DNA of 64,000 nt from Ruania albidiflava DSM 18029. Its GTDB lineage: Bacteria > Actinomycetota > Actinomycetes > Actinomycetales > Beutenbergiaceae. The DNA is taken from contig NZ_ATWL01000003.1 in NCBI RefSeq assembly GCF_000421225.1, forward strand, positions 248,001 through 312,000. The letters are read 5' to 3'. This document shows positions 1 to 22,261 of this stretch, in pieces; within the stretch, counting starts at the first letter, position 1, and every line of letters starts with the position of its first letter. The notes beneath the pieces are model-generated. The model was not told where the DNA came from and did not search any database. It saw nothing but the letters and a program-made list of their open reading frames with translations. The translations under genes were made by a program, and so were the position numbers.

Positions 1-1175
1 GGTCCCAGTGGGAGCAGGGAGAGCCGCAGGCGGAGATCCTGCAGGATGCGATCGACGACTTCACGGCGGACACCGGTATCGAGGTGCAGGTGGAGTGGCA
101 GGGCCGGCAGATCATGCAGAAGGTGCAGCCACTGTTGCGCTCCGGTGACGTCCCGGATGTGGTGGACGCCTCCAGCAACGACATCCGTGCCACGCTGGTG
201 CGCGCCGAGCAGACCCGGGGCCTGTCCGACCTGTTCGCCAGCCAGGTACCGGGAGAGGACGGGACCGTCGGCGATGCGCTCGGCGACTACGACGAGCTGA
301 TCACCGCCGATGGGATGGACGGGCCGTTCATGCTGCCGACCATCCTGATGGCGCAGAGCCTGTTCTACGACGGCAACGCCCACGACCTGGCCCAGCCGGC
401 CGACTGGTCGGAGCTCATGTCCATGCTCGAGGAGCTCGAGAGCGAGCGTGGCTCCGGACCGATCGCCCTCGACGGGGACATCGGCTCCTATGGTGCGGTG
501 TGGACCTCCGCTGCGTTGATCCACCAGCTCGGCGCCGGGGGCTTCAACACCATCGCCGCCGACGAGACCGGGCAGGCCTGGGACGATGACGGGGTGCGCA
601 CCGCACTCGGCCGGATCGCCGAGCTCGCCGAGGGCGGGTACTGGGCGGACGGCAGCTTTGGCTCGAAGTTCCCGCAGATGCAGGAACGCTGGGCGGCGGG
701 GGAGGCTGACCTGCTGTTCATGGGGTCCTGGGCGCCGCAGGAGACCAGCACCTCGACCACGGACAACTTCGAGTACCGCCAGCTCGGCTTCCCGCCAGCC
801 GGTAACGGCGAGTTCATGCAGAGCGACGTGTCCGGGTTTGCTGTCCTGGCCGGGTCGGACAACCCTGAGGAGGCGGAGCAGCTGCTGGCGCACTTCGTGC
901 AGGCTGACGTGATGCAGGCGATGGCCGACGACGCCGCCCAGCTGGTCACCCGCCCGGACATCGACCCGCCGGAGACGCTGGCCGACACCGCCGAGCTGAT
1001 CAACGACCGTACCGCCGTCCGGTTCTACGACGGTGTGGACGGTGACTATCCCGGGTACCCGACCGACGTGTTCGAGCCGGTGAACCTGGAGCTGCTGCGC
1101 GGGGAGATCGACGTGGACGAGGCGATCACCCAGCTGATCGAGGCCCAGCAGAGCTACTGGGCCAAGCAGGGCTGA
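1..1175 (+). CDS. ABC sugar transporter substrate-binding protein (5' end cut by window)
   Basis: Extracellular solute-binding protein of a carbohydrate ABC importer (SBP family 1 type). The frame is already open at base 3, so the N-terminus with the expected lipoprotein signal lies outside; about 390 residues are visible. Seen: a binding-protein-like opening (EILQDAIDDFTADTGIEVQV), a central LLFMGSWAP segment typical of the hinge region of sugar-binding proteins, and a C-terminal YWAKQG end. The stop is 2 nt before the first permease, so it belongs to that operon. Binding proteins normally dictate substrate; the GH172 and other enzymes downstream point to imported furanosidic oligosaccharides, but this is inference. 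The family call is firm, the substrate is not known. Confidence 0.88.
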   Translation, partial: SQWEQGEPQAEILQDAIDDFTADTGIEVQVEWQGRQIMQKVQPLLRSGDVPDVVDASSNDIRATLVRAEQTRGLSDLFASQVPGEDGTVGDALGDYDELITADGMDGPFMLPTILMAQSLFYDGNAHDLAQPADWSELMSMLEELESERGSGPIALDGDIGSYGAVWTSAALIHQLGAGGFNTIAADETGQAWDDDGVRTALGRIAELAEGGYWADGSFGSKFPQMQERWAAGEADLLFMGSWAPQETSTSTTDNFEYRQLGFPPAGNGEFMQSDVSGFAVLAGSDNPEEAEQLLAHFVQADVMQAMADDAAQLVTRPDIDPPETLADTAELINDRTAVRFYDGVDGDYPGYPTDVFEPVNLELLRGEIDVDEAITQLIEAQQSYWAKQG

Positions 1176-1177
1176 GC

Positions 1178-2152
1178 ATGACGGCGCCGGTGGCCGACCC
1201 GCTGACCCGCCCGGGCGGGTCCGGGGCGAGCCGCCCCGGGCGGCGCGCAGACGGCGGAGCGACCTCGCCGCTGCAGCGGCGCCGGGCGAAGATGTTCTGG
1301 CCGTTCCTGCTGCCCGCCCTGGTGCTGTACACGGCGTTCATGGTCGGTCCCACCCTCGCCTCGTTCTGGATCTCGCTGCACTCCTGGGACGGGATCACGC
1401 CGATGACCTGGCGCGGCCTGACGAACTTCCACCTGCTGCTGGCCGACCCGGTGTTCCACACCGCACTGCTGAACACGCTGGTGATCCTCTTCGGTGTGGG
1501 CGCTGCGGTGTTCGCGCTCAGCTTCGCTCTGACCATGCTGCTGCGGGACATGGCCGGACGGCGGTTCGCCCGCGCCGTCATCTTCTTCCCCTCGATCGTC
1601 TCGCCACTGGTGCTGGCAATCTTCTGGGGGTTCCTGTTCCAGCAGCGCGGTCTGCTGGACAGCCTGCTGACCGGGCTCGGCATGGCCGACCGGCCGAACT
1701 TCCTCGGCGACCACCTGTGGCTGATCGTCTGCCTGGGCATGGTGTGGATGTCCACCGGGCTGTACGTGACGATCATCATGGCCGGTGTCGACCAGATCCC
1801 TCCGTACCTGTACGAGGAGTGCGAGCTGGCCGGAGCCACCGCCTGGCAGCGGTTCCGGTACGTGACCTTCCCGCTCACCTGGGACGTCATCGCCACCACC
1901 ACCGTGCTGTGGACCGTGAGCTCGCTGAAGATCTTCGACTTCATCCTCGCCTTCGGCGGCACCACCAACGACCTGCCACCCACCAGCACCTGGAATACCG
2001 CGTTGTTCATCTACGGCAACACCTTCGGTGGCCGGGTGCCGCTGTACCAGTTCGGCTACGCCTCCGCCGCTGCGGTCGTCACGCTGGTGACGATCATCGT
2101 GCTCGTGGTGCTGCTGCGGCGGTTGACCCGACGAGAGGCGGTGCAGCTGTGA
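1178..2152 (+). CDS. ABC sugar transporter permease (MalF/UgpA type)
   Basis: Inner-membrane permease of a binding-protein-dependent sugar importer, 324 aa, about six membrane helices beginning near residue 45 (FWPFLLPALVLYTAFMVGP). The EAA loop that docks the ATPase is visible near residues 210-230 (YEECELAGATAWQRFRYVTFP). A proline/arginine-rich N-terminal tail of about 40 residues precedes the first helix. It starts 2 nt after the binding-protein stop, and its stop shares a GTGA overlap with the next permease, so the three are co-translated. No ATPase gene follows; a shared multitask ATPase (MsiK type) is inferred. Confidence 0.92.
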   Translation: MTAPVADPLTRPGGSGASRPGRRADGGATSPLQRRRAKMFWPFLLPALVLYTAFMVGPTLASFWISLHSWDGITPMTWRGLTNFHLLLADPVFHTALLNTLVILFGVGAAVFALSFALTMLLRDMAGRRFARAVIFFPSIVSPLVLAIFWGFLFQQRGLLDSLLTGLGMADRPNFLGDHLWLIVCLGMVWMSTGLYVTIIMAGVDQIPPYLYEECELAGATAWQRFRYVTFPLTWDVIATTTVLWTVSSLKIFDFILAFGGTTNDLPPTSTWNTALFIYGNTFGGRVPLYQFGYASAAAVVTLVTIIVLVVLLRRLTRREAVQL

Positions 2153-3009
2153 GCATCGCAGCCCTGCGCCGGTCCTCCCGGCGCAGCAGCACCTGGCGCA
2201 AGGTCGCCTCGGCGGCCGTCTGGCTGGTGATCGCCTTCAACCTGGCGGTCTTCCTCTGGGTGTTCGTCAACTCCCTGCGCAGCCACGCCGAGATCTTCGC
2301 CAACCCCTGGGGGCTGCCGCGCACGCTGCACACCGAGAACTGGATGAACGCCTGGGTCACCTCCGGGTTCGGTGCTGCCATCGGCAACTCCGTGCTGGTC
2401 TGCATCACCGCAGCGGTGGGGATCGTGGTCATCTCCGCCCCGGCCGGCTACATCCTCGCCAAGACGAACCGCCGGCTGTCCGAGGTGGCGCTGATGTACA
2501 TCGCCGTGGGGGTCGGGGTGCCCACCCAGGTGATCGTCATCCCGCTGTTCACCATCGTGCAGCGCCTGGGGCTGCTGAACTCTCTCTTCGGGCTGGTGGT
2601 GGTGTACGTCGCCCTGAACCTGCCGTTCACGATCTTCCTGCTCGCCGGCTTCTTCCGGTCGATGCCGGACGAGCTGGAGGAGGCAGCGGCACTCGACGGT
2701 GCCGGCAGCCTGCGCACCTTCGCCCAGATCGTGGCCCCGATGGCACGCTCGGGGATGACCACCGCACTCATCCTCAACCTGGTGTGGTTGTGGGCCGAGG
2801 TGTTCCTCGCCCTGATCCTCATCCAGAGCACGTCCAAGCAGACCCTCCCGCTGGCGCTGTTGAACTTCATGGCCCAGCAGCAGTACGGCGGGAACGACTA
2901 CGGCCAGCTGCTCGCCGGCATCGGCATCATCCTGCTGCCGGTGCTCGCCGCCTACATCTGGTTGGGTCGCCGCATCATCGAAGGAATGACCGTAGGAGCC
3001 GGTAAGTGA
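2149..3009 (+). CDS. ABC sugar transporter permease (MalG/UgpE type)
   Basis: Second permease of the importer, 286 aa. I choose the GTG at 2149 because it overlaps the stop of the previous permease by 4 bases (GTGA); the longer open frame upstream is out-of-frame shadow. Features are six predicted helices and an EAA loop around residues 185-205 (MPDELEEAAALDGAGSLRTF), the MalG-type form of the motif, followed by IVAPMARSG. With its partner it would form the transmembrane channel and needs an ATPase encoded elsewhere. It is coupled to the downstream DUF5107 gene by another GTGA overlap. Confidence 0.92.
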   Translation: MSIAALRRSSRRSSTWRKVASAAVWLVIAFNLAVFLWVFVNSLRSHAEIFANPWGLPRTLHTENWMNAWVTSGFGAAIGNSVLVCITAAVGIVVISAPAGYILAKTNRRLSEVALMYIAVGVGVPTQVIVIPLFTIVQRLGLLNSLFGLVVVYVALNLPFTIFLLAGFFRSMPDELEEAAALDGAGSLRTFAQIVAPMARSGMTTALILNLVWLWAEVFLALILIQSTSKQTLPLALLNFMAQQQYGGNDYGQLLAGIGIILLPVLAAYIWLGRRIIEGMTVGAGK

Positions 3010-4949
3010 CCATCCCCATGCTGCGCCGAGATGCGCTGCACCTGCCCGCCGCCCACCTGGGAGAGGAGAGCCTCCTGCCGGTGCCGGACGGGCTGCTCGA
3101 GGCCCCGTTCGAGCTCGGCGACGACCTGCCGGTCGAGCTGCAGGAAGGAGCGCAGATCGGCCCGCCGCGGTCGGTGCACCCCTACCTGCTGCAGGACGGC
3201 TACGACCGGCAGCGGCGCCCTGCCGAGCTCCAGGCGCTGGTGCTGGACAACGGCATCCTGCAGGCGACGTTCCTGCCGGGGATGGGCGGACGGCTGTGGT
3301 CGCTGGTGGACCTGACCACCGGGCGGGACCTCGTCTATGCCAACTCCTGCGTGCAGCCTGCGAACCTCGCCCTGCGGAACGCCTGGGTGGCCGGAGGGGT
3401 GGAGTGGAACCTGGGCACGAAAGGGCACAGCGTGCACACCATGGCGCCGCTGCACGCCGCCCGGGTGGAGGGTCCGGACGGTGCGCCACGGCTTCGGATG
3501 TGGGAGCTGGACCGGATCCGCCGCGTGGTCTTCCAGATCGACGCCTGGCTGCCCGCAGGCGGGCGCGGGCTGCACGTGTACGTGCGGGTCGAGAACCCGA
3601 ACGACGAGGCGGTCCCGATGTACTGGTGGTCGAACGCCGCGGTCGAGCAGCGCCCCGACCTGCGGGTGCTGGCCCCCACCCGCCGTGCGTACGCCACCGG
3701 CTACGACGGCACGATCGGAGAAGTGCCGGTCCCGGTGGCCGAGGACGGCGACCACACCTGGCCCGCGGCCAGCCCCCGGGCCGCGGACTACTTCTACGCC
3801 CTGCACGGCCAGCAGCAGCCGTGGGTCGCCGGCGTGCAGGGCAGCGGCCACGGGCTGGTGATCGCCTCCACCGCACGTCTGCACGGACGCAAGCTGTTCT
3901 GCTGGGGCAACGGGCCCGGCGGGCGGCACTGGCAGCAGTGGCTCTCCCCGGACGGCGGCGAGTACGTCGAGCTGCAGGCCGGACTGACCAGCACCCAGTT
4001 CGAGCACGTGATGATGCCCGGCGGGGCGAGCTGGGACTGGGTCGAGGTGTACGGGGACGTCGCCGCCGACCCCGACCTCGCCCACAGCCAGGACTGGGAC
4101 GTAGCGGTGGCGCACGTGGCCGACCGGGTCGCCGCACTGGCACCGCCGGAGCAGCTGACCGAGACGCTCACCGCCGCCCGGGCGCTCGCCGACCAGGCAC
4201 CTGAGCAGCTTCTCGCCGCCGGTTCCGGCTGGGGCGCCCTGGAGCGTGAGGTGCGCCGGAAGACCGGGGAACGCTGGATCGCCGAGAGCTCTCGACCGTT
4301 CCCCGCCAGCACCCTCGGGCCGGAGCAGCACCCGTGGCACCAGCTGCTCACCGAGCCCGGTGCCGACCCGTTCACCGACGCGGACCCGGCCGTGCCGCCG
4401 GCGTCCTACGTGTGTGGTCCGCCGTGGGCAGAGCTGCTGCACCAGGTCCCACCCGGCTGGCTGCGCGACTACCACCTGGGCGTGCTCGCCCATGCCCGCG
4501 GCGACCTGCAGAGCGCCCGGGACCACCTGCACACCTCCCGCGGCCAGCGCCCCACAGCATGGGCGGCGCGCGCGGAGGCTCGGGTCGCCGCCGAGCAGGG
4601 CGAGCCAGCGCTCGCGGTCGACCTGCTCACCGAGGCGGTGCGGCTCGCGCCGACCCAGCCGCACCTGCTGCTCGAGGCGATGTCGGCGGCCCTGGCTGCC
4701 GACCGCCCCGAGCTCGCCCTCACTCTCTTCGACGCCGCACCGGTGGCCAGCACGCGCACCGGCCGGGTACGGCTGCTGGAGGGCACCGCCGCGCTGCGCA
4801 CCGGAGACCGTGCCCGGGCCGAGGCCGTGCTGGCCTCCGACCTGGTGATCCCCGACCTGCGCGAAGGTGAACGCTCGCTCAGCGACCTGTGGCACGACGT
4901 CTACGGCGACCGACCCGTCCCCACCCACTACGACTTCCGGATGGCCTGA
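3006..4949 (+). CDS. DUF5107 domain protein with C-terminal TPR repeats
   Basis: 647-aa cytosolic protein (no signal peptide or membrane helix). The N-terminal ~350 residues match the DUF5107 type: a beta-rich, epimerase/glycosidase-like domain with LVLDNGILQATFLPGMGGR and WNLGTKGHSVH segments and many exposed Trp/His residues. The last ~170 residues are alpha-helical repeats of TPR character (GVLAHARGDLQSARDHL, LLTEAVRLAPTQPHLLLEAM). DUF5107 has no reaction I can name with certainty; such proteins sit in sugar-degradation operons. The GTG start at 3006 overlaps the permease stop by 4 bases, so it is made together with the importer. It may act on the imported oligosaccharide. Function unknown. 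Confidence 0.85.
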   Translation: MTIPMLRRDALHLPAAHLGEESLLPVPDGLLEAPFELGDDLPVELQEGAQIGPPRSVHPYLLQDGYDRQRRPAELQALVLDNGILQATFLPGMGGRLWSLVDLTTGRDLVYANSCVQPANLALRNAWVAGGVEWNLGTKGHSVHTMAPLHAARVEGPDGAPRLRMWELDRIRRVVFQIDAWLPAGGRGLHVYVRVENPNDEAVPMYWWSNAAVEQRPDLRVLAPTRRAYATGYDGTIGEVPVPVAEDGDHTWPAASPRAADYFYALHGQQQPWVAGVQGSGHGLVIASTARLHGRKLFCWGNGPGGRHWQQWLSPDGGEYVELQAGLTSTQFEHVMMPGGASWDWVEVYGDVAADPDLAHSQDWDVAVAHVADRVAALAPPEQLTETLTAARALADQAPEQLLAAGSGWGALEREVRRKTGERWIAESSRPFPASTLGPEQHPWHQLLTEPGADPFTDADPAVPPASYVCGPPWAELLHQVPPGWLRDYHLGVLAHARGDLQSARDHLHTSRGQRPTAWAARAEARVAAEQGEPALAVDLLTEAVRLAPTQPHLLLEAMSAALAADRPELALTLFDAAPVASTRTGRVRLLEGTAALRTGDRARAEAVLASDLVIPDLREGERSLSDLWHDVYGDRPVPTHYDFRMA

Positions 4950-4983
4950 CCCACCCTGCTCGCTGCCCAAGGAGGACAGCCCG

Positions 4984-6087
4984 ATGATCCCCGGACTCCC
5001 CACCGCCCCGCTGGGCGGCATGTCCCTGTTGTCCGACGCCCAGACCCGGTCGATCAGTGCGGAGAACCCCACCGGTGCCCCCGGCGGCGGTGGGCGCGCC
5101 GAACGTGGCGACCACTCCACCGCCTACGCATCCCGTGACCTGGGCCTCGGCTGGAAGAAGTCGCCGTGCAAGGACCTGCGGGGAGGTGAGACCTTCACCG
5201 TCGCCGAGATCGACGGTCCGGGCATCATCCAGCACATCTGGATGACCACGTTGCCCCGGCACTGGCGGTCCCTGGTGCTGCGCTGCTACTGGGACGAGGA
5301 GGACACCCCCTCGGTCGAGGTGCCCCTGGGGGACTTCTTCTGCCAGGGCTGGGCACGCTACGCCCCGGTCTCCTCGGTCCCCGTCGCCGTCGCCCCGGCC
5401 GGAGGGCTGAACTCCTACCTGCAGATGCCCTTCGCCCGGCACGCCCGGATCACCGTGGAGAACACCAGCAAGGACACCATCGAAGGCTTCTTCTACCAGA
5501 TCACCTACAGCCTCACCGAGATCGGCACCGGGCACGGCTACCTGCACGCCCAGTGGCGCCGGTCCGACCCGTTGCCCTACGGGGAGCCGCACGTCATCCT
5601 CGACGGCGTGCACGGGCAGGGGCACTATCTGGGCACCTACCTCGCCTGGGAGTCCCACCACACCGGCTGGTGGGGTGAGGGGGAGATCAAGTTCTACCTC
5701 GACGACGACGAGGACTTCCCCACGATCTGCGGCACCGGCACCGAGGACTACTTCGGCGGGGCCTGGGCCTTCGAGCACCCGGACGGGGCCCGGTACCAGC
5801 CCTACAGCACGCCCTACCTGGGCATGCCGCAGGTGATCACCCCGGACGAGTTCTACGACAGCCAGCTGCGGTTCGGTCTGTACCGCTGGCACCTGCCCGA
5901 CCCGATCCGCTTCACCCGCCGGCTCCGGGTGACGATCCAGGCGCTCGGGTTCGCCAGCCCCCAGGAGGGCCTGGAGCGCTACCGACCGCTGCAGGAGGAC
6001 ATCGCCTCGACGGCATGGTGGTACCAGAGCGAACCGCACGCTCCGTTCCCGCCAGCGCCGACCTTCGACCGGATGGACACCGTCTGA
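4984..6087 (+). CDS. GH172 (DUF2961) glycosidase, copy 1
   Basis: 367-aa cytosolic glycoside hydrolase of family GH172, a family with alpha-D-fructofuranosidase and exo-alpha-D-arabinofuranosidase members. The ATG at 4984 follows AAGGAGG by 8 nt. The family signature is clear: WWGEGE then TICGTGTEDYFGGAW, placing the two conserved glutamates at E232 and E254 (22 apart, matching the catalytic pair known in the family). No signal peptide, so it would act on imported sugar. It lies 34 nt after the DUF5107 gene. It is a close paralogue of the GH172 at 12315 (shared QTRSIS-ENPTGAPGGG N-terminus) and more distant from the one at 13650. Activity on D-arabinofuranosides is inferred from the neighbours. 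Confidence 0.9.
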   Translation: MIPGLPTAPLGGMSLLSDAQTRSISAENPTGAPGGGGRAERGDHSTAYASRDLGLGWKKSPCKDLRGGETFTVAEIDGPGIIQHIWMTTLPRHWRSLVLRCYWDEEDTPSVEVPLGDFFCQGWARYAPVSSVPVAVAPAGGLNSYLQMPFARHARITVENTSKDTIEGFFYQITYSLTEIGTGHGYLHAQWRRSDPLPYGEPHVILDGVHGQGHYLGTYLAWESHHTGWWGEGEIKFYLDDDEDFPTICGTGTEDYFGGAWAFEHPDGARYQPYSTPYLGMPQVITPDEFYDSQLRFGLYRWHLPDPIRFTRRLRVTIQALGFASPQEGLERYRPLQEDIASTAWWYQSEPHAPFPPAPTFDRMDTV

Positions 6088-6144
6088 CCCGGAGCGCCGA
6101 CAGCGCTCACGTCTCGAGCTCACGTCTCAAGGAGGAGAGAACCT

Positions 6145-9100
6145 GTGCACACCCGACGACTGATCACCCTGCTGGCAGCACCTGCGCTGCTGGCTGGCCT
6201 TGCCGTGGCCGCACTTCCAGCCTCGGCCGCACCGCCACCACCGCAGGATGCCGAGGTCTCCGACCTCCAGGTCGTCCCCACGTTGAAGGAGTGGCACGGC
6301 GACGACGGCGCCGACTTCCACCTGGGTGGGCACGTCGTGCTGCCGCAGGGCGCGGGAGAGGAGCTGACCGCCGTCGCGGCCACGTTCGCCGACGACCTGG
6401 AAGCACTCACCGGCCGGCACGTGCCGGTGAACAGCGGCCGCGCCCGGCCCGGGGACGTCCAGCTGGACCTGAGCGGCGACCACGAGCTCGGTGCGGAGGG
6501 CTACCAGCTCGACGTCGACGGCACGCTGACCATCACCGGGCCCACCGCGCACGGGGTGTTCAACGGCACCCGCAGCGTGCTGCAGCTGCTCAGCCGCGCT
6601 GAGGTGGTACCAGCGGGTACCGCGCGGGACTGGCCGACCAAACCCGTGCGCAGCGTGCTCGTGGACAACACCCCGCGACACTTCTCGATCACCTGGTGGG
6701 AGTCCTTCTTCCGGCAGATGAGCTACTTCAAGCTCAACGACACCAACCTGTACATCGACGGCGTGGGCATCACCCCTGAGCAGATGACCCAGATCGACGA
6801 GCTCGGCCAGCGCTACTACGTGCAGGTGGTGCCCCAGCTGAACATGCCCGGGCACATGGCGACCGTGCTGCCCTCGCACCCGGAGTACCAGCTGCGCAAC
6901 CAGGACGGGACCTTGGACCCGCAGGCCCTCGACCTCACCAACGAGGACGCCGTCGAGTGGGCGCTGAGCATCATCGAGGACACCATCGACCAGTTCTCCT
7001 CCGACGTGTGGCACCTAGGTTCCGACGAGTTCCCCAGCTGGCCCGGCACCGGTGAGAACCACCCCCAGCTGACCGAGTACGCACAGCAGAAGTTCGGCCC
7101 GGAGGCCACGTTCGCGGACCTGTTCGCCGACTTCCAGAACCGGGCGAACGAGATCGTGCAGGCGCACGGCAAGACCATGCGGGTCTGGAACGACATGATC
7201 CGCCAGTCCGACGTCGTCACCTTGGACGAGGACATCGCCGTGGAGTACTGGATCAGCCACCCCGCACTCCCAGGTCTGCTGTCCCCGCAGGACATCGCCG
7301 ACCGCGGCAACCAGCTGGTCAACGCCGACGTCGACCTGCTCTACTACGACATGTCCCGGCGCAACCTCGACCCGCGCGACCTGTACGAGCAGTTCGACGT
7401 GAACACGTTCACCGCCGACCAGCAGGTCGACCCCGATCACGTGGCCGGAGCGCGGATCGCCGTCTGGCTCGCGTGGATCGGCACCCCGATGGAGAGCGAC
7501 GCCGAGGTGCTCAGCAACCTGCGCCCGGACATGGCCGCCCTGACCCAGCACACCTGGGGGGAAGGGCCGGAACAGTCCTGGACGGACTTCTCCGCACTGG
7601 TGGACGAGCTCGGCCTGCCGCCCGGCCTGGTCAGCGGAGGTCACAGCATGACCGGCGAGCCAGCCCTTGCTGCGAACCCGGACGGTTCCATCGCCTGGTT
7701 CGCCCGGGACGAGGAGGGACGCCTCTGGTCTGGTCAGCAGCATGACCCGGGATCTGGTCCGTGGTCCCGCGACCGGCTCGCCACCAGGGTGGTCACCGAT
7801 CCGCAGACGATCGTCGACGACGACGGCCGGGTGCACGTGCTGGTCGGTGCGGCCCATGGCCGGGTGCTGCACGCCTGGCAGACCTCCCCGGGAGCCGACA
7901 CCTACCGGACCGAGCGACCGGGCCGCACCGTCGACGGTCCGCCCGCCCCGTTCCTCGACGCAGACGGGGTCGGTTGGGCGGTCCGGGCCGGTGCAGACCT
8001 GGTGGTCCGTACCGGTGACGGTGAGCAGTCGGTCGTGGCCAGCACGGTCACCGGGCCGGTGGCGGCCACTGTGGCCGATGGCACCGTGCACGTCCTCGCT
8101 GGGACGACCGACGGCATGGTGCACGCCTGGCGCACCGGCTCCACCTGGCAGACTGAGACCGAGGACCTCAAGCTGGACGCCGACCCGGTGCTGGTCGCGG
8201 ACGACGGTCAGCCGCTCGCTGTGGTGCGCAGCGGAGAGCAGGTCCTCGCCCGTGACCTGGCCTCCGGTGCCGACTGGACGCAGGTCGCCGATGCTGCGCA
8301 CGGCCAGCCGGCGGTCACTGTCGGGCCCGACGGCACTGCCCACGTCGCCTACCTGCACAGCGGCAACGAGGTCTGGTACGCCCATCGCGGGGACGGAGAC
8401 TGGTCCACGCGGGTGGCCTGGTACGACTTCGTCGACGACCCGGCCATCCTCGTGCAGCAGGACGGACGACCGCTCATCATGGGCCAGAACGACCGCGGCT
8501 TCCTCGCCGCCGTGCAGCCCGACCCGGACGACCCGGGGGCCGACTGGCAGTGGGCGCACCTGGCGGAGAGCACCAGTGGTACGCCGGCGATGATCCGGGA
8601 CGCCGAGGGCCGGGCCACCTATGCGGCCACCACCACCTACGGTGACCTGCAGACCGGCACCCGGTGGGGTGGTATCGGGGACTGGGGGCGGGACTTCGTC
8701 GTCGGCACCATCCAGTTCCCGGGCGACGACCTGGTCCCCGACCAGTTCTCGAGCACCCGATTCTCCGACGACTTCGACTCCGACACCAGCGGTGACTACG
8801 AGCTGCTCACCATGAGCGATTCCGAGGCCGCGCTGGCGCCTCAGGTCGTGGACGGGCGCCTGCAGGTCAGCGGCCAGGACTACTACTCGATGCTGCTTGC
8901 CGAGGAGAACCTTCCGGCCGAGGGTGAGACGACAGTGGTGCTGGACATCGAGGAGCTCGCCGACCCGGGCGGTTCGGAGAACTCCCTGTACCTGGGCTTC
9001 GCCCAGGATGCGGACAACCGCGCCGTCGCCTGGTACGACCGGAACGCCTCCAGGCTCGGGTTCGACATCGTCACCGACGGGCAGTCCTTCGGTGGCTGGG

Positions 9101-9339
9101 GAGACGTCCCAGCCCACCTGCGTCCGGGGGACCGGCTCGCCGTCACCCTCTCCGGGCGGTGGCTGACCGCCTACCGGTGGCACGACGGGCAGTGGGACCG
9201 GATCCACACCGCCCCGGTGAACGGCAACGACGACATCACCGATCCCCAGGTGCGTGCCGAGTACCGTCCAGCGGTGGGTTTCCGGGCTACCAGCGGCACG
9301 CTCGCCGTGGACAACCTCGAGCTGCGTACCCGGGGCTGA
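6145..9339 (+). CDS. Secreted GH20-type beta-N-acetylhexosaminidase-like enzyme with propeller and LamG-like domains
   Basis: 1064 aa. GTG start 6145 is preceded by AGGAGGAGA. Residues 1-29 form a signal peptide (RR, hydrophobic core, ASAA cleavage). Residues ~35-155 resemble the GH20 N-terminal domain; ~160-490 form the TIM-barrel domain with the GH20 acid pair in HLGSDEF (D294, E295). Residues ~495-860 carry repeats of a fucose-lectin/PLL-like propeller (VHVLVGAAHGRVLHAW, VHVLAGTTDGMVHAW), and the last ~190 a concanavalin-like sheet domain. GH20 enzymes use substrate-assisted cleavage of beta-HexNAc; this one may release HexNAc outside the cell. It is the last gene of block 1, followed by a hairpin. 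Its link to D-arabinan is unclear. Confidence 0.85.
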   Translation: MHTRRLITLLAAPALLAGLAVAALPASAAPPPPQDAEVSDLQVVPTLKEWHGDDGADFHLGGHVVLPQGAGEELTAVAATFADDLEALTGRHVPVNSGRARPGDVQLDLSGDHELGAEGYQLDVDGTLTITGPTAHGVFNGTRSVLQLLSRAEVVPAGTARDWPTKPVRSVLVDNTPRHFSITWWESFFRQMSYFKLNDTNLYIDGVGITPEQMTQIDELGQRYYVQVVPQLNMPGHMATVLPSHPEYQLRNQDGTLDPQALDLTNEDAVEWALSIIEDTIDQFSSDVWHLGSDEFPSWPGTGENHPQLTEYAQQKFGPEATFADLFADFQNRANEIVQAHGKTMRVWNDMIRQSDVVTLDEDIAVEYWISHPALPGLLSPQDIADRGNQLVNADVDLLYYDMSRRNLDPRDLYEQFDVNTFTADQQVDPDHVAGARIAVWLAWIGTPMESDAEVLSNLRPDMAALTQHTWGEGPEQSWTDFSALVDELGLPPGLVSGGHSMTGEPALAANPDGSIAWFARDEEGRLWSGQQHDPGSGPWSRDRLATRVVTDPQTIVDDDGRVHVLVGAAHGRVLHAWQTSPGADTYRTERPGRTVDGPPAPFLDADGVGWAVRAGADLVVRTGDGEQSVVASTVTGPVAATVADGTVHVLAGTTDGMVHAWRTGSTWQTETEDLKLDADPVLVADDGQPLAVVRSGEQVLARDLASGADWTQVADAAHGQPAVTVGPDGTAHVAYLHSGNEVWYAHRGDGDWSTRVAWYDFVDDPAILVQQDGRPLIMGQNDRGFLAAVQPDPDDPGADWQWAHLAESTSGTPAMIRDAEGRATYAATTTYGDLQTGTRWGGIGDWGRDFVVGTIQFPGDDLVPDQFSSTRFSDDFDSDTSGDYELLTMSDSEAALAPQVVDGRLQVSGQDYYSMLLAEENLPAEGETTVVLDIEELADPGGSENSLYLGFAQDADNRAVAWYDRNASRLGFDIVTDGQSFGGWGDVPAHLRPGDRLAVTLSGRWLTAYRWHDGQWDRIHTAPVNGNDDITDPQVRAEYRPAVGFRATSGTLAVDNLELRTRG

Positions 9340-9344
9340 CGACC

Positions 9345-9376
9345 GCGGGTCGTGCGGTGGGTGCCGCACGACCCGC
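9345..9376 (+). terminator. Hairpin after the GH20 gene
   Basis: A perfect 13-bp inverted repeat (GCGGGTCGTGCGG and its complement) with a 6-nt loop, starting 5 nt after the GH20 stop. There is no T-run, as is common in high-GC actinobacteria. It separates block 1 from the promoter of block 2 and is a likely transcription terminator. Confidence 0.65.
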
Positions 9377-9451
9377 CGGGCTCGCTGCGGCTCGGCTGCC
9401 GCCGCCAGGGCACGCGTGCGGCGATGTGTCCGGGCCGGTACACACCCTTGG

Positions 9452-9475
9452 TACACTCGCCTGAAATCGATTACG
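9452..9475 (+). promoter_or_regulatory. -10 element and LacI-type operator of block 2
   Basis: TACACT at 9452-9457 is a plausible -10; no good -35 is seen. At 9462-9475 lies TGAAATCGATTACG, a 14-bp LacI-family site with a central CG. Its core, GAAATCGATTAC, is identical to the first operator of block 3 (13501-13512). The operator would cover the transcription start, so the LacI encoded at 11223 would repress its own operon. The -10 is less certain than the operator. Confidence 0.6.
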
Positions 9476-9513
9476 AGGGTGTGTCCACAGTGTCCCTGGA
9501 GGAGTTCGGCGGT

Positions 9514-18083: not shown

Positions 18084-20663
18084 ATGAGCACCGGTGACCA
18101 GCAACGGCCGATCCCGCACACCGAGGGTCGGCACGTGGCCATGCCCCTCGGCGGTATCGGTACCGGCAACCTGGCGCTGGGCGCCGACGGCGGTCTGCGG
18201 CAGTGGCAGCTGCACAACATCGGCAACCACCGCGGGGAGCTGCCCGGGTCGTTCTTCGCCGTCCGCGTCTCGCAGTGGGAGCCGCCGTTCGACGCGGTGC
18301 GTGTGCTGCAGGCCCCGCCCGCACCGCTGGGGAGCACCAGCACCCCGCTGGTCACCGATGATGTCGTCCCCCGTTGGCAGCGCGATCTCCTCGCCCGCGC
18401 CGACGGCGTAGCCTCCACCACTTTCACCGGCACCTATCCGTTCGGTCGGGTGGAGTACCACGACGACACCCTGCCGGTGCAGATCAGCCTGGAGGCGTTC
18501 ACCCCGCTGGTCCCGCTGGACGTCGACCGCAGCTCGTTGCCGGCCGCGCTGTTCACGTTCACCATCACCAACACCGACTCGGTGCCCGTGCACGGATGGC
18601 TCGGCGCCGGGGTGCAGAACGCCGTCGGTGGTGATGGCGTCCTGCCGCCGGACGGAGTGCACCACCCCGGTTACGGCGGCAACACCAACCGGGTGCACCG
18701 CTCCGGCGGGTGGACGTCGCTGCTGCTGGAGAACCAGAGCCTGTCCGAACGCCATCCCGGTGCCGGGCAGATGGTGCTCACCTGCGACGCGGCCCCGACC
18801 GCGGCGCTGCCGGCCTGGACCAGCCCGCAGCAGCTGCTGGACTTCCTCGCATCCCGGCAGCCGTTCGCGGCTCAGGACTGGGCGCAGCTGCCTCCAGATG
18901 CGTCCGACCCGCAGCCGACCGGATCGTGGGCCCAGGCTGGCCCGAGCCCCGCCGGTAGTACCTGGAACGCCGCCCTGGCCGGCCAGTTCACCCTGGCGCC
19001 GGGGGAGAGCAGCACCGTGCGGCTGGCGCTGACCTGGCACTTCCCGAACCGGCAGGTGAACTTCACCCAGTTCGGCGGCATCCGACCGGAGCAGCTGGCC
19101 GACCGCGCCTGGCTCGGCAACTACTACACCACTCGGTACCCGGACGCGATGGCCGTGGCCGAGCGGGTGCAGGCCGAGTGGCACGAGCTGGAGCGGCTGT
19201 CCCGCGACTGGACCGACGTGCTCGGTACCGGCGCGCTGCGCGCCGGAGCGGTCGAGCACCTGGCTGCGCAGGCGGCCGTGATCCGCAGCCCCAGCTTCTT
19301 CCGCACCGCCGACGGGCACTTCTTCGGCTTCGAGGGCGTGCACGGCGCCTCCACGCTCATGTGGTCCGGGGACGTGGGCGGCTCCTGCCCGCTGAACTGC
19401 ACCCACGTGTTCAACTACGTGCAGGCGGTGGCGCACCTGTTCCCCGAGGTCGAACGGGACATGCGCGAGCTCGAGCTGGACGTGCTGCAGGCACCGGAGG
19501 GGTTCATCCCGCACCGGCTGCTGCTCCCGCTGGACACCCCGCAGCTGTGGGACCGAGAGATCGGTGGACCCGGAGAACCCGCCCTGGACGGCATGCTCGG
19601 CACCGTCTTGAAGACCTACCGGGAGGTGCGCGCCGGTGCCGGGCAGGACTGGCTCGCCCGGTACTGGCCCAGGCTGCAGCGGCTGCTGCACTACGTGGTC
19701 GAGGGGTGGGACCCGCAGGACACCGGCGTGCTGCACGGTATCCAGCCGTCCACCCACGACATCGACCTGGCCGGGGTGAACTCCTTCATGGGCACGCTCT
19801 GGCTGGCGGCGCTGCGGGCCGCTGAGGAGATGGCCCTGCTGCTCGGCGACCGGGCGGCCGCGCAGTCCTGGCGGGAACGGTTCGAGACCGGCTCCCGGGC
19901 CTACGACGAGGCCCTCTTCACCGGGGAGTACTACGTCCAGGTGCTCGAGGACGGCGACCCGGTGCAGTTCCAGTGGGGCCGCGGCTGCCTGTCCGACCAG
20001 CTGATCGGTCAGTGGTGGGCGCACCAGCTGGATCTGGGCCACCTGCTCCCGGCCGACCATGTGCGCACCGCGCTGCGTGCCGTGGTCCAGCACAACTTGC
20101 GTACTGACTTCACCGACTTCGAGCACGGCTACCGCGTGTTCGCCGACCGTGACGAGGCCGGCCTGCTGGTGTGCACCTGGCCGCACGGTGGTCGTCCCGA
20201 GGTGCCCACCCGCTACTGCGACGAGGTATGGACCGGCACCGAGCAGCAGGTGGCGGCGCACTGCCTGGCCGAAGGGCTCGTCGAGGAGGGGAACGCCATC
20301 CTGGAGGGCCTCTGGTCCCGCTACGACGGCCGGCGCCGCAACCCCTACAACCAGGTGGAGTGCGGGGACCACTACGTGCGTGCCCTGTCCGGGTGGAGCG
20401 TGCTGGGGGCGCTGACCGGGCATGTCTGGGACGCCACCTCGGCGACGTTGCACCTGCGCCGCCCACCGCACGGCACCGCCTACCCGGTGCTCACCCACAC
20501 CGGCTGGGGCACGGCGGAGGCGACCACCGACGGCCTGGTGCTGACTGCCAGGTACGGACAGCTCGCGATCGACCACCTGGCCCTGGAGGGACAGGTGAGC
20601 TCCGCCGTCGACCTGCACCTCGGGCCCGGGGAGAGGGCCACCGTTGCGGGACCGGTGCCGTGA
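18084..20663 (+). CDS. GH116 (DUF608) glycoside hydrolase
   Basis: 859 aa, cytosolic, ATG 18084 after a very strong ribosome site. The N-terminal ~320 residues are the GH116 beta-sandwich domain (MPLGGIGTGNLALGADGGLR); the C-terminal part is an (alpha/alpha)6 barrel with GGSCPLNCTHVFNYVQAVAH and THDIDLAGVNSFMGTLW segments. GH116 contains beta-glucosidases and beta-xylosidases; a member from an arabinan-degrading Microbacterium is an exo-beta-D-arabinofuranosidase. Beside GH172 and GH183 genes that activity is the most attractive guess: removal of the beta-1,2-linked terminal residues of D-arabinan. I do not assign catalytic residues. The stop overlaps the next start by 4 bases (GTGA). Confidence 0.88.
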   Translation: MSTGDQQRPIPHTEGRHVAMPLGGIGTGNLALGADGGLRQWQLHNIGNHRGELPGSFFAVRVSQWEPPFDAVRVLQAPPAPLGSTSTPLVTDDVVPRWQRDLLARADGVASTTFTGTYPFGRVEYHDDTLPVQISLEAFTPLVPLDVDRSSLPAALFTFTITNTDSVPVHGWLGAGVQNAVGGDGVLPPDGVHHPGYGGNTNRVHRSGGWTSLLLENQSLSERHPGAGQMVLTCDAAPTAALPAWTSPQQLLDFLASRQPFAAQDWAQLPPDASDPQPTGSWAQAGPSPAGSTWNAALAGQFTLAPGESSTVRLALTWHFPNRQVNFTQFGGIRPEQLADRAWLGNYYTTRYPDAMAVAERVQAEWHELERLSRDWTDVLGTGALRAGAVEHLAAQAAVIRSPSFFRTADGHFFGFEGVHGASTLMWSGDVGGSCPLNCTHVFNYVQAVAHLFPEVERDMRELELDVLQAPEGFIPHRLLLPLDTPQLWDREIGGPGEPALDGMLGTVLKTYREVRAGAGQDWLARYWPRLQRLLHYVVEGWDPQDTGVLHGIQPSTHDIDLAGVNSFMGTLWLAALRAAEEMALLLGDRAAAQSWRERFETGSRAYDEALFTGEYYVQVLEDGDPVQFQWGRGCLSDQLIGQWWAHQLDLGHLLPADHVRTALRAVVQHNLRTDFTDFEHGYRVFADRDEAGLLVCTWPHGGRPEVPTRYCDEVWTGTEQQVAAHCLAEGLVEEGNAILEGLWSRYDGRRRNPYNQVECGDHYVRALSGWSVLGALTGHVWDATSATLHLRRPPHGTAYPVLTHTGWGTAEATTDGLVLTARYGQLAIDHLALEGQVSSAVDLHLGPGERATVAGPVP

Positions 20664-22261
20664 GCAGGAGGCGACGGGCCGCACTGATCAGCATGGGAGG
20701 GATCGTGGCGATCAGCCTGGCTGCTGCGGGTGGGGCCTCGGCCTCGGAGGCCGGCTCCAGCGTGGTGCTGGTGGAGGAGATGACCGGCGCCGGTGCCGTC
20801 ACCGACACCGCTGCCCAGTGGCAGGTCGAGGGCACCGACCTGGGCATCATGTGGGACGACGGCCACGGCGGTGTGCTCACCGCGTTCGGGGACACCTTCG
20901 GCGACTGGTCCGGGGACGGCGGCGGAGGCGGGGACTGGCGCTCGAACGTGCTGCTGCGGTCCACCGATACCGACCTGACCGACGGGATGTCCTTCGACTG
21001 GGCGCTCGAGGACGCCCCCGGGCACGCCGGGGAGATCATCGGATCGGCGAAGGTCCCCGGCGAGGAGCACACCACCATCCCCACCGCCGGGATCGAGATC
21101 GAGGGACGCCAGTACCTGTCCTACATGTCGGTGCGGGAGTGGGGCGATCCGGGCCAGTGGTGGACGAACTTCGCCCAGCTGGTCTACTCCGACGACGGCG
21201 GGCAGACCTGGAGAAGCGACGGTATGTCCCGGTGGGAGAACGATGCGGACGGGTCCAGCCCGCTGCAGATGCATGCCTTCGTCCGCGACGACGGCTACCT
21301 GTACGTCTTCGGCACGCCGAACGGCCGGTTCGGGGCCGCCCACCTGGCGCGGGTCGCCGAGGACCAGGTCGCCGACCAGGCCGCCTACGAGTACTTCACC
21401 GGCCAGGGCTGGTCCGCCGACCCGGCCGACCTTCAGCCGGTGGTCGACCCGAGCGTGGCCGAGCTGTCCGTGCACCGGGACGCCGAGACCGGGCTGTGGC
21501 TGATGGTCTACCTGAACGAGGACGTGGACCTGGTGCTGCGCACCGCCACCGAGCCCACCGGCCCGTGGAGCGAGGCGCAGGTGCTGGCCAGCTCGGCGGA
21601 CTACCCGGGACTGTACGGCGGGTACGTCCACCCGTGGTCGCCCAGCGGTGAGCTGTACCTGGCGATGAGCCTGTGGGGCGGGTACAACGTGGCGCTGATG
21701 CACGCCGCCTACGACGCCGACGGGCAGCTGGTCCGCCCGAACCTGCTCGCCGACCCCAGCTTCGAGCGCAGCACCGACCTGGGCGCCGACGGCCCCTGGC
21801 AGCTGACCGGGACCGGCGGCATCGACGTGTCGATCGCCGACGCCAAGCTCGGCGGGCAGCACTTCTGGCTCCGGGACAGCCAGGGCGCGGCGGAGCTGAC
21901 GCAGACGGTGCCGGTGCGCCCGCACACCACTTATCGGCTCACCTGCTGGTTGCGCACCGGTGGGGCCAGCGGGCCGGGGGTGCTCGGTGCTCGCCCGGCC
22001 GCCGGCTCCGGCGGCGAGCTCGCCGTGGACTTCACCGACCTGGAGGGCTGGCAGCAGCTCAGCGGCACGGTGGACACCGGCTCGGCGGACAGTCTCCAGG
22101 TGTACATCTCCACCACGTTCGACGGCGGAGACAGGTGGGTGCAGGGGGATGACTGCTCCCTGGTGGAGACCGCCGGCGATGGTGGTGCGGCCGCCGGCGG
22201 AGTGGTCGGTGCTGGGCTGCTCGCCGGCGGCCTGCTGCTGATCCGGAGACGCCGAACCTGA
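20660..22261 (+). CDS. Secreted, membrane-anchored DUF4185/GH183 protein (candidate endo-D-arabinanase)
   Basis: 533 aa; GTG 20660 overlaps the GH116 stop. Residues 1-29: signal peptide (SRRRRAAL, hydrophobic core, ASAS). Residues ~30-350: DUF4185 propeller with the family opening WQVEGTDLGIMWDDGHGGVL, then AFGDTFG and WRSNVLL. GH183, founded on DUF4185, contains endo-D-arabinanases of mycobacteria and of D-arabinan-degrading bacteria. Residues ~355-500: a jelly-roll CBM-like domain (NLLADPSFERSTDLGADGPW). The tail has a glycine/alanine-rich helix ending in RRRR, so the enzyme is held on the outer face of the membrane. It would make the first cuts, supplying oligosaccharides to the importers. 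Last gene of block 3. Confidence 0.87.
   Translation: MSRRRRAALISMGGIVAISLAAAGGASASEAGSSVVLVEEMTGAGAVTDTAAQWQVEGTDLGIMWDDGHGGVLTAFGDTFGDWSGDGGGGGDWRSNVLLRSTDTDLTDGMSFDWALEDAPGHAGEIIGSAKVPGEEHTTIPTAGIEIEGRQYLSYMSVREWGDPGQWWTNFAQLVYSDDGGQTWRSDGMSRWENDADGSSPLQMHAFVRDDGYLYVFGTPNGRFGAAHLARVAEDQVADQAAYEYFTGQGWSADPADLQPVVDPSVAELSVHRDAETGLWLMVYLNEDVDLVLRTATEPTGPWSEAQVLASSADYPGLYGGYVHPWSPSGELYLAMSLWGGYNVALMHAAYDADGQLVRPNLLADPSFERSTDLGADGPWQLTGTGGIDVSIADAKLGGQHFWLRDSQGAAELTQTVPVRPHTTYRLTCWLRTGGASGPGVLGARPAAGSGGELAVDFTDLEGWQQLSGTVDTGSADSLQVYISTTFDGGDRWVQGDDCSLVETAGDGGAAAGGVVGAGLLAGGLLLIRRRRT

Follow-up and report, generated by a model that had tools for sequence, protein, structure and literature searches.

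A candidate D-arabinan utilisation locus in Ruania albidiflava with a divergent GH183-like protein and an operator-like box

What glycan is served by a gene run that carries three glycoside hydrolase (GH) family 172 genes, a GH116 gene, a GH183 gene and two sugar importers? The question is raised by positions 1-22261 of a stretch of 64,000 nucleotides (the window; positions 248001-312000 of contig 3) from the 4.17-Mb, 60-contig draft genome of Ruania albidiflava DSM 18029. We consider it highly probable that the genes form a D-arabinan utilisation locus of the kind found in Microbacterium arabinogalactanolyticum, taking the reading as a whole with its divergent GH183-like protein (D4L), isomerase, kinase and control by a LacI-family regulator. 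Its core, D-arabinan catabolism, is well supported by the best matches to characterised enzymes, the active-site residues, the tree placement and the conserved neighbourhoods. Gene identities, active-site residues, neighbourhoods and the distribution of an operator-like box were read from sequence.

Genes were called by a Pfam domain scan of the frames of the window, with third-position G+C as a frame check. This gave 15 genes in positions 1-22261, every one on the forward strand and head to tail, in the order SBP1, two permeases, DUF5107-TPR, GH172-A, GH20, D4L, LacI, GH172-B, GH172-C, SBP2, two permeases, GH116 and GH183 (Table 1); no ATPase gene is among the 15. The scan bore out the three GH172 genes, the GH116 gene, the two ATP-binding cassette (ABC) importers and the LacI listed in an earlier note on this DNA, which had passed over the secreted GH20, the DUF5107-TPR gene and, left of the window, the isomerase-like and ROK genes. 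Each importer is an SBP-permease-permease set (3-3009 and 14800-18064). In genome-wide searches, the three GH172 matches of the host genome and its sole GH116 match all lie inside this stretch. GH183, GH172, GH116 and a sugar ABC importer, whose co-occurrence characterises an actinobacterial D-arabinan polysaccharide utilisation locus (PUL), are all present here.

GH183, GH116 and GH172 enzymes

The earlier note had counted two GH183/DUF4185 genes and assigned the first cuts to surface GH183. A genome-wide Pfam search returned one strong DUF4185 match and two below threshold. The strong one, at the right end of the cluster, scores 384.8 bits, above the Pfam cut-off, and is an EndoMA1-type GH183. 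It aligns with EndoMA1 (8hhv) across 469 residues, covering the catalytic propeller and a putative carbohydrate-binding module, and the counterparts of EndoMA1 Asp33, Asp51, Arg198 and Glu243 are kept in all 20 rows of an alignment of the window protein with 19 of 23 locus relatives. Its N-terminus is a hydrophobic leader and its C-terminus a hydrophobic stretch followed by RRRR, features in keeping with the proposed surface role. The frame itself opens at 20171; the start is most likely 20660 or 20693, candidates that sit where the GH116 gene ends. The second gene of the earlier count, D4L, proved to be a distant relative at 34.1 bits, below the family cut-off of 39.5, with no visible signal peptide.

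The third match of the genome is likewise below threshold (32.3 bits) and lies at L005:9836-11131 (contig 8 of the host genome, about 42.8-44.1 kb). It adjoins a sugar importer, a short-chain dehydrogenase, an enolase-type protein and an acetyl-xylan-esterase-like gene, and resembles another sugar cluster.

The GH116 protein scores 180 bits over the N-terminal and 145 bits over the catalytic Pfam domain. Its top match in the PDB is ExoMA2 (8ic6), any other chain reaching at most 96 bits. Equivalents of ExoMA2 E431, H446, R483 and D557, which comprise the nucleophile, the acid/base and the determinants for beta-D-arabinofuranose (beta-D-Araf), are kept in 11 of 11 rows; a loss of the nucleophile suggested by a phmmer alignment was discarded, as the 11-row realignment places Glu there. 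Two GH116 sub-types occur in such loci: an ExoMA2-like one (five Microbacterium rows, 72-78% identical to ExoMA2) and that of the window (four rows, 52-81% identical to the window protein). ARAGORN calls a tRNA-Arg (CCT) at 19354-19428 on the forward strand, within the GH116 coding sequence, which is probably spurious, given the G+C-rich DNA.

The three GH172 genes score 314, 295.5 and 294 bits with the Pfam DUF2961/GH172 model. Their relations were read from a tree of 48 rows (38 of 40 locus copies, the three window copies, three of locus L038 and four characterised enzymes). GH172-B falls in the ExoMA1 clade (28 rows, support 100/100) and has Asn at ExoMA1 position 253; GH172-A and an L038 copy form a pair beside the remaining clade. 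GH172-C groups apart, together with DgGH172c and BACUNI_00161 (support 97/98), and has Cys at this position. Over all rows, the position holds Asn in 26, Cys in 17, Ala in two and Gly in one (aFFase1), the motif being missed in two. Asn253 of ExoMA1 blocks fructofuranose, and the Gly of aFFase1 gives room for its 1-hydroxymethyl group (PMC10509167).

These residues bear on the proposal that the GH172 copies are alpha-D-fructofuranosidases and that the locus consumes a fructofuranoside. The scores of GH172-C against aFFase1, DgGH172c and BACUNI_00161 are about the same, which would fit that proposal; where GH172-B falls in the tree and which specificity residue it has speak against it, as do the D-Araf-type GH183 and GH116 partners, and we give it hardly any credence. 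A firm grouping of GH172 copies with fructofuranosidases, which the earlier note had named as evidence against its own reading, was not observed with respect to aFFase1, which forms a long branch outside both groups; the deep joins of the tree are unsure because long branches meet, as the program warns (W_A and W_C groups included).

The divergent GH183-like protein D4L

Searched alone against the PDB with phmmer, D4L found no relative, and a profile search returned weak sialidase-repeat matches and a chance-like match to UnaG. Comparison of D4L with GH183 by hhalign gave a 98.6% match probability (E 1.3e-15, 23% identity across 228 columns). The AlphaFold2 model of D4L (mean pLDDT 89, pTM 0.89; residues 1-43 unsure) has EndoMA1 as its top PDB matches in Foldseek (8ic1, E 9.8e-20; 8hhv, E 1.4e-18), followed by sialidases and GH43 enzymes, with AraH2 (8an0) at rank 27 (TM 0.64 by target length). 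We aligned 46 D4L rows, the window protein and 45 near-full-length relatives chosen from 77 usable frames. The family straddles the DUF4185 cut-off: 33 of the 46 rows reach a Pfam E-value of 0.01 or better, and among ten D4L-bearing genomes of the class seven copies score over the cut-off and three under (G000, which is the genome of the window, G098 and G154). Members of D4L may already be counted within GH183.

Is D4L an enzyme? Its residues D72, D90 and R247, the counterparts of the nucleophile, the acid/base and the Arg, are kept in 46 of 46 rows; the acid/base column comes from hhalign, and that of the nucleophile falls just beyond the aligned part, D72-L73 having been paired with D60-L61 by visual inspection. 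The third carboxylate, EndoMA1 E243, is Gln in 45 rows and Leu in one. This substitution is the ground for regarding D4L as a GH183 relative that has lost catalysis and serves to bind D-arabinan oligosaccharides, the more so as the third Glu is essential in EndoMA1, where E243Q is nearly inactive (PMC10509167). The corresponding E381A mutant of DgGH4185b is broadly active (PMC10115798), and both catalytic Asp are required in each of the two enzymes (PMC10509167, PMC10115798). Since the third-Glu mutants disagree between enzymes and D4L keeps both Asp and the Arg throughout, catalysis by D4L seems likely from its residues, and a purely binding role unlikely.

No signal peptide was seen in the window D4L when its N-terminus was inspected by eye, and it is therefore probably no first-cut enzyme; as judged from this N-terminus, it seems to work inside the cell. 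A crude hydrophobicity score, taken as the best of all possible starts, gave 0.1-1.1 for its near relatives (L052, L053, L054, L064 and L080), none of them signal-like; the threshold of 1.8 was reached by 51 of the 70 D4L relatives that offered a usable start and by 23 of 24 GH183 proteins. We rejected D4L as a plain second surface GH183, given its score below the cut-off, the lack of a visible signal peptide and Gln in place of Glu. Two D4L copies occur in Microbacterium clusters L076, L089, L090 and L098, one of them lipoprotein-like; for the second copy the signal score is low in two of the clusters (L076 and L098) and ambiguous in the other two.

To which genes is D4L linked? A scan of one genome per species found 147 relatives, of which 80 loci were kept, mostly from Actinomycetota and also from Bacillus, Cohnella and a few metagenome-assembled genomes of other groups; within the family of Ruania, D4L is present in 14 of 24 genomes. 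Neighbours were sought by tblastn (E 1e-5, more than 60 bits) within 10 kb, 15 of the 80 loci being shorter than 15 kb. GH172 was found near D4L in 39 loci, GH183 in 19 and GH116 in 13, with at least one of the three in 43 and at least two in 18. GH172 is rare, any copy being present in 23 of 197 genomes of the class, and all ten class genomes with D4L are among these 23 (hypergeometric 6e-11). Among the family loci, the order D4L-LacI-GH172-B-GH172-C-importer-GH116 recurs in L037 and L038 and partly in L042 and L044; the same order from D4L to GH116, with a GH183 relative inserted, is found in L039-L041 and L043. Relatives of importer 2 recur in other D-arabinan-type clusters. In two Bacillota loci (L093 and L081, Cohnella and Bacillus) D4L stands beside GH172-C-type genes, in Cohnella also with GH183 and a related importer, a pairing that hints at transfer between phyla.

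Nocardia species are arabinan makers, and in the Nocardia loci L082 and L084-L088 D4L stands without any match to GH172, GH116 or GH183. The D4L of L082 carries a Tat-like leader, and a role in wall remodelling is possible in these species. Could the Ruania genes, too, be the cell-wall remodelling set of an organism with D-arabinan of its own, and no feeding locus? The Nocardia copies would be in keeping with this, as would the GH183 enzymes found in arabinan makers (PMC10115798). Importers, leaderless exo-enzymes, an isomerase-like gene and a LacI box form a catabolic arrangement instead, and we hold remodelling to be very improbable. Ruania also belongs to the Micrococcales, outside the mycolic-acid order.

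Operator-like box, left module and proposed pathway

Intergenic reading revealed an operator-like box, GAAATCGATTAC, before the isomerase-like gene, D4L-LacI and GH172-C. At up to two mismatches the window contains five matches, in three places, against 0.34 expected. The exact word occurs three times in the whole genome, every copy in the cluster, and its reversed control not at all; at up to one mismatch there are five sites, four of them in the cluster. The pattern GWAATCGATTWC is found 36 times in the 24 family genomes, 29 of these sites being within 10 kb of D4L or GH172, stretches that make up 0.73% of the sequence. This is the fairer test, as the 80 loci were picked for D4L. In those loci the pattern has 67 sites in 43 loci, and core-swapped controls gave none (CCGG, GCGC and six further cores) or three (ACGT). 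The box is carried by 31 of the 43 loci with hydrolase neighbours versus 12 of the 37 without, and a LacI relative is present in 34 of 43 box-bearing loci versus 6 of 37 boxless ones. A crude assignment placed 43 of the 67 sites close to where a gene of the set starts. These counts are to be read with the caveat that the word may be shared by other LacI-family regulators and that related species share descent.

Does the left module (importer 1, DUF5107-TPR, GH172-A and GH20) belong to the same system? It has turned up only within a single genus, in three genomes, and is present in two (L037 and L038, of this genus) of the nine family loci in which a D-arabinan-type cluster surrounds D4L; across the 80 D4L loci, GH20 relatives occur in one and DUF5107 relatives in none. 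GH172-A, in which no signal peptide was seen, has relatives at about 90% identity in two other family genomes; its best match in any other of 396 genomes of the phylum (E 1e-40) is 59% identical and has Asn at the specificity position. GH172-A and its L038 counterpart have Ala there, versus Asn in the 26 other rows of their clade. The GH20 is lacto-N-biosidase-like by sequence. The target of the left module need not be D-arabinan, and the earlier proposal of a D-arabinan utilisation locus is supported in part: for catabolism as such, with a left half whose target may differ.

We weighed whether two loci adjoin, the right half (D4L to GH183) serving D-arabinan and the left half another furanoside glycan with terminal beta-N-acetylhexosamine. 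Besides its narrow distribution, the left module has its own importer; no box was seen directly before SBP1, GH172-A or GH20 by intergenic reading and word search; and the Ala of GH172-A falls at the site where Gly in aFFase1 admits a 1-hydroxymethyl group (PMC10509167). Against a division, the module falls within the regulon borders, as the isomerase-like gene with its box is placed beyond it to the left; GH172-A remains a sister of the ExoMA1 clade; and the genes follow one another on one strand along the whole stretch. We regard two adjacent loci as a serious possibility, falling somewhat short of an even chance.

For the D-arabinan locus that we favour, we infer from these data the substrates, cell locations, regulation, transcripts, catalysis and linkage of D4L, isomerase substrate and kinase, as follows. 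Surface GH183 would open the D-arabinan of arabinogalactan or lipoarabinomannan, and the oligosaccharides would enter through importer 2. In the cytosol, GH172-B and GH172-C would strip alpha-D-Araf and GH116 beta-D-Araf, and D4L might cleave a linkage poorly handled by the exo-enzymes, such as branch points or longer oligomers. The product of the isomerase-like gene would convert D-arabinose to D-ribulose, and an unlinked FGGY kinase would yield D-ribulose 5-phosphate for the pentose phosphate pathway. LacI would repress the isomerase, D4L-LacI and GH172-C/importer-2 transcripts via GAAATCGATTAC and leave the box when the sugar is present, its ligand presumably being D-arabinose or a product of it. 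Such a cell would feed on mycobacterial-type walls; other glycans with D-Araf are known, as in the pili of Pseudomonas aeruginosa PA7 (PMC10115798). Relatives of the isomerase-like gene occur in 16 of the 80 D4L loci, ten at 61-70% and six at 24-28% identity. An attempt to name one FGGY kinase as the pathway kinase reached no assignment.

Several points besides the Gln of D4L weigh against this reading. Among the enzymes, the window GH116 is only 38% identical to ExoMA2 in the 11-row alignment, the isomerase-like gene scores 28.2 bits, just under the Pfam cut-off of 29.3, and there is no kinase in the cluster, none of the seven FGGY kinases of the genome lying there. The whole-chain superposition of D4L and EndoMA1 is loose (root-mean-square deviation 13 Å, TM-scores 0.4-0.5), perhaps from a differently placed C-terminal domain in the model. 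With regard to distribution, 37 of the 80 D4L loci have no GH172, GH116 or GH183 match; eight of the ten D4L-bearing class genomes come from one family, so that the events are not independent; and the family copies L045, L047, L048, L050 and L051 lie outside such clusters, L049 being accompanied by GH116 only. As to the box, seven of the 36 family sites lie elsewhere (G002, G012, G015, G016, G018 and two in G019), and by the crude assignment 24 of the 67 locus sites are away from any assignable gene start. The pattern search found no box in the D4L cluster of G016, nor did the family-genome search find one in L045, L047, L048, L050 or L051.

We tentatively put forward, at somewhat less than even confidence, a more general proposal. 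D4L would be a functionally undescribed, divergent branch of the GH183 group, hydrolases for D-arabinan fragments at a linkage poorly cut by GH183, GH172 and GH116, with cytosolic forms for imported fragments and lipoprotein or secreted forms outside; it would span many actinobacterial families and some Bacillota, in many of which one conserved LacI-type box, GWAATCGATTWC, would mark D-arabinan regulons. If this is true, the box could help to locate additional D-arabinan genes. It was not until 2023 that enzymes cutting mycobacterial D-arabinan were linked to genes, and the published set still has helpers without a name. With its testable active site, the conserved D4L family offers, together with the locus-marking box, a direct route to the missing activities and to tools for the analysis of arabinogalactan and lipoarabinomannan.

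Between about 22 and 52 kb, the scanned genes of the window are mostly housekeeping (a Na+/H+ antiporter, menC, menB and the NADH dehydrogenase operon).

Table 1. Features of the cluster, in window coordinates (ORF, open reading frame)
Feature	Position	Strand	Evidence
ROK regulator	left of window	opposite to isomerase-like gene	domain scan
Isomerase-like, 574-codon frame	about -3268 to -1617 (left of window, same contig)		fucose-isomerase C-terminal match, 28.2 bits
SBP1, sugar-binding lipoprotein of importer 1	3-1175, true start about 126 bases left of window	+	SBP_bac_1, 80.7 bits; N-terminus MMTTTARQRRAGLVLPALTVAALALASCSGG
Importer 1 permeases	1178-2152 and about 2149-3009	+	BPD_transp_1, 45.6 and 72.7 bits
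DUF5107 + TPR-like protein	3006-4949	+	PF17128, 115 bits; single PDB relative 5cd6
GH172-A, ExoMA1-related	4984-6087	+	DUF2961/GH172; PDB 8ic8, 426 bits
GH20, secreted, lacto-N-biosidase-like, PLL-lectin-like repeats	6145-9339	+	PF00728, 86.7 bits; 8hvb, 221 bits; leader; WHLGSDEF
D4L, divergent GH183-like, with C-terminal F5/8C-like domain	9424-11226, start uncertain (ORF 9352-11226)	+	DUF4185, 34.1 bits
Operator-like box before D4L-LacI	9463-9474	+	intergenic reading, word search
LacI-family regulator	11223-12239	+	Pfam; nearest NCBIfam model RbsR, under its cut-off
GH172-B, predicted exo-alpha-D-arabinofuranosidase	12315-13370	+	8ic8, 577 bits
Operator-like box, second exact window copy	13501-13512	+	degenerate inverted copy at 13515-13526
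GH172-C, DgGH172c/BACUNI-type	13650-14741	+	4kq7, 291 bits; 8ah3, 277 bits; 7v1v, 276 bits
Importer 2: SBP2, two permeases	14800-18064 (14800-16170; 16251-17171, 17171-18064)	+	Pfam
GH116, predicted exo-beta-D-arabinofuranosidase (ExoMA2-like)	18084-20663	+	8ic6, 425 bits
GH183, predicted endo-D-arabinanase, EndoMA1-like	20660-22261, start 20660 or 20693 (ORF 20171-22261)	+	8hhv, 438 bits

Comparison with known systems

Searching for a published account of D4L or the box, we found none; there is no known published name to search by, so this is weakly tested, and D4L may be present in the published DUF4185 tree. D4L is remotely homologous to the GH183/DUF4185 family, is predicted to adopt its fold and keeps the two catalytic Asp, and some D4L members pass the cut-off. 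It differs from GH183 in the low score of the window copy, 23% identity, Gln as third carboxylate, an extra F5/8C-like domain and no visible signal peptide.

The closest known system is the D-arabinan PUL of Microbacterium arabinogalactanolyticum JCM 9171, which shares a GH183 with a signal peptide, GH172 and GH116 without one, a sugar ABC importer and a putative isomerase (PMC10509167). Its EndoMA1, ExoMA1 and ExoMA2 are the best PDB matches of the window GH183, GH172-A/B and GH116, the last at an identity of just 38%. That PUL has four DUF4185 genes and one GH172, whereas here there are one clear GH183 and three GH172, and a kinase is reported for JCM 9171 (PMC10509167), whereas the window cluster has none. 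Relative to that PUL, the Ruania locus has in addition a GH20, DUF5107-TPR and a second importer; it also has D4L, to which one of the uncharacterised DUF4185 genes of JCM 9171 may correspond.

PUL42 of Dysgonomonas gadei likewise combines three GH172 with DUF4185 enzymes and a fucose isomerase (PMC10115798), and the window GH172-C resembles its DgGH172c. PUL42 is a Bacteroidota system (PMC10115798), whereas the window locus has ABC importers. As we read it, the Ruania locus is the Microbacterium kind of system described in 2023 with three additions: D4L, the box and a genus-level module with an Asn-to-Ala GH172.

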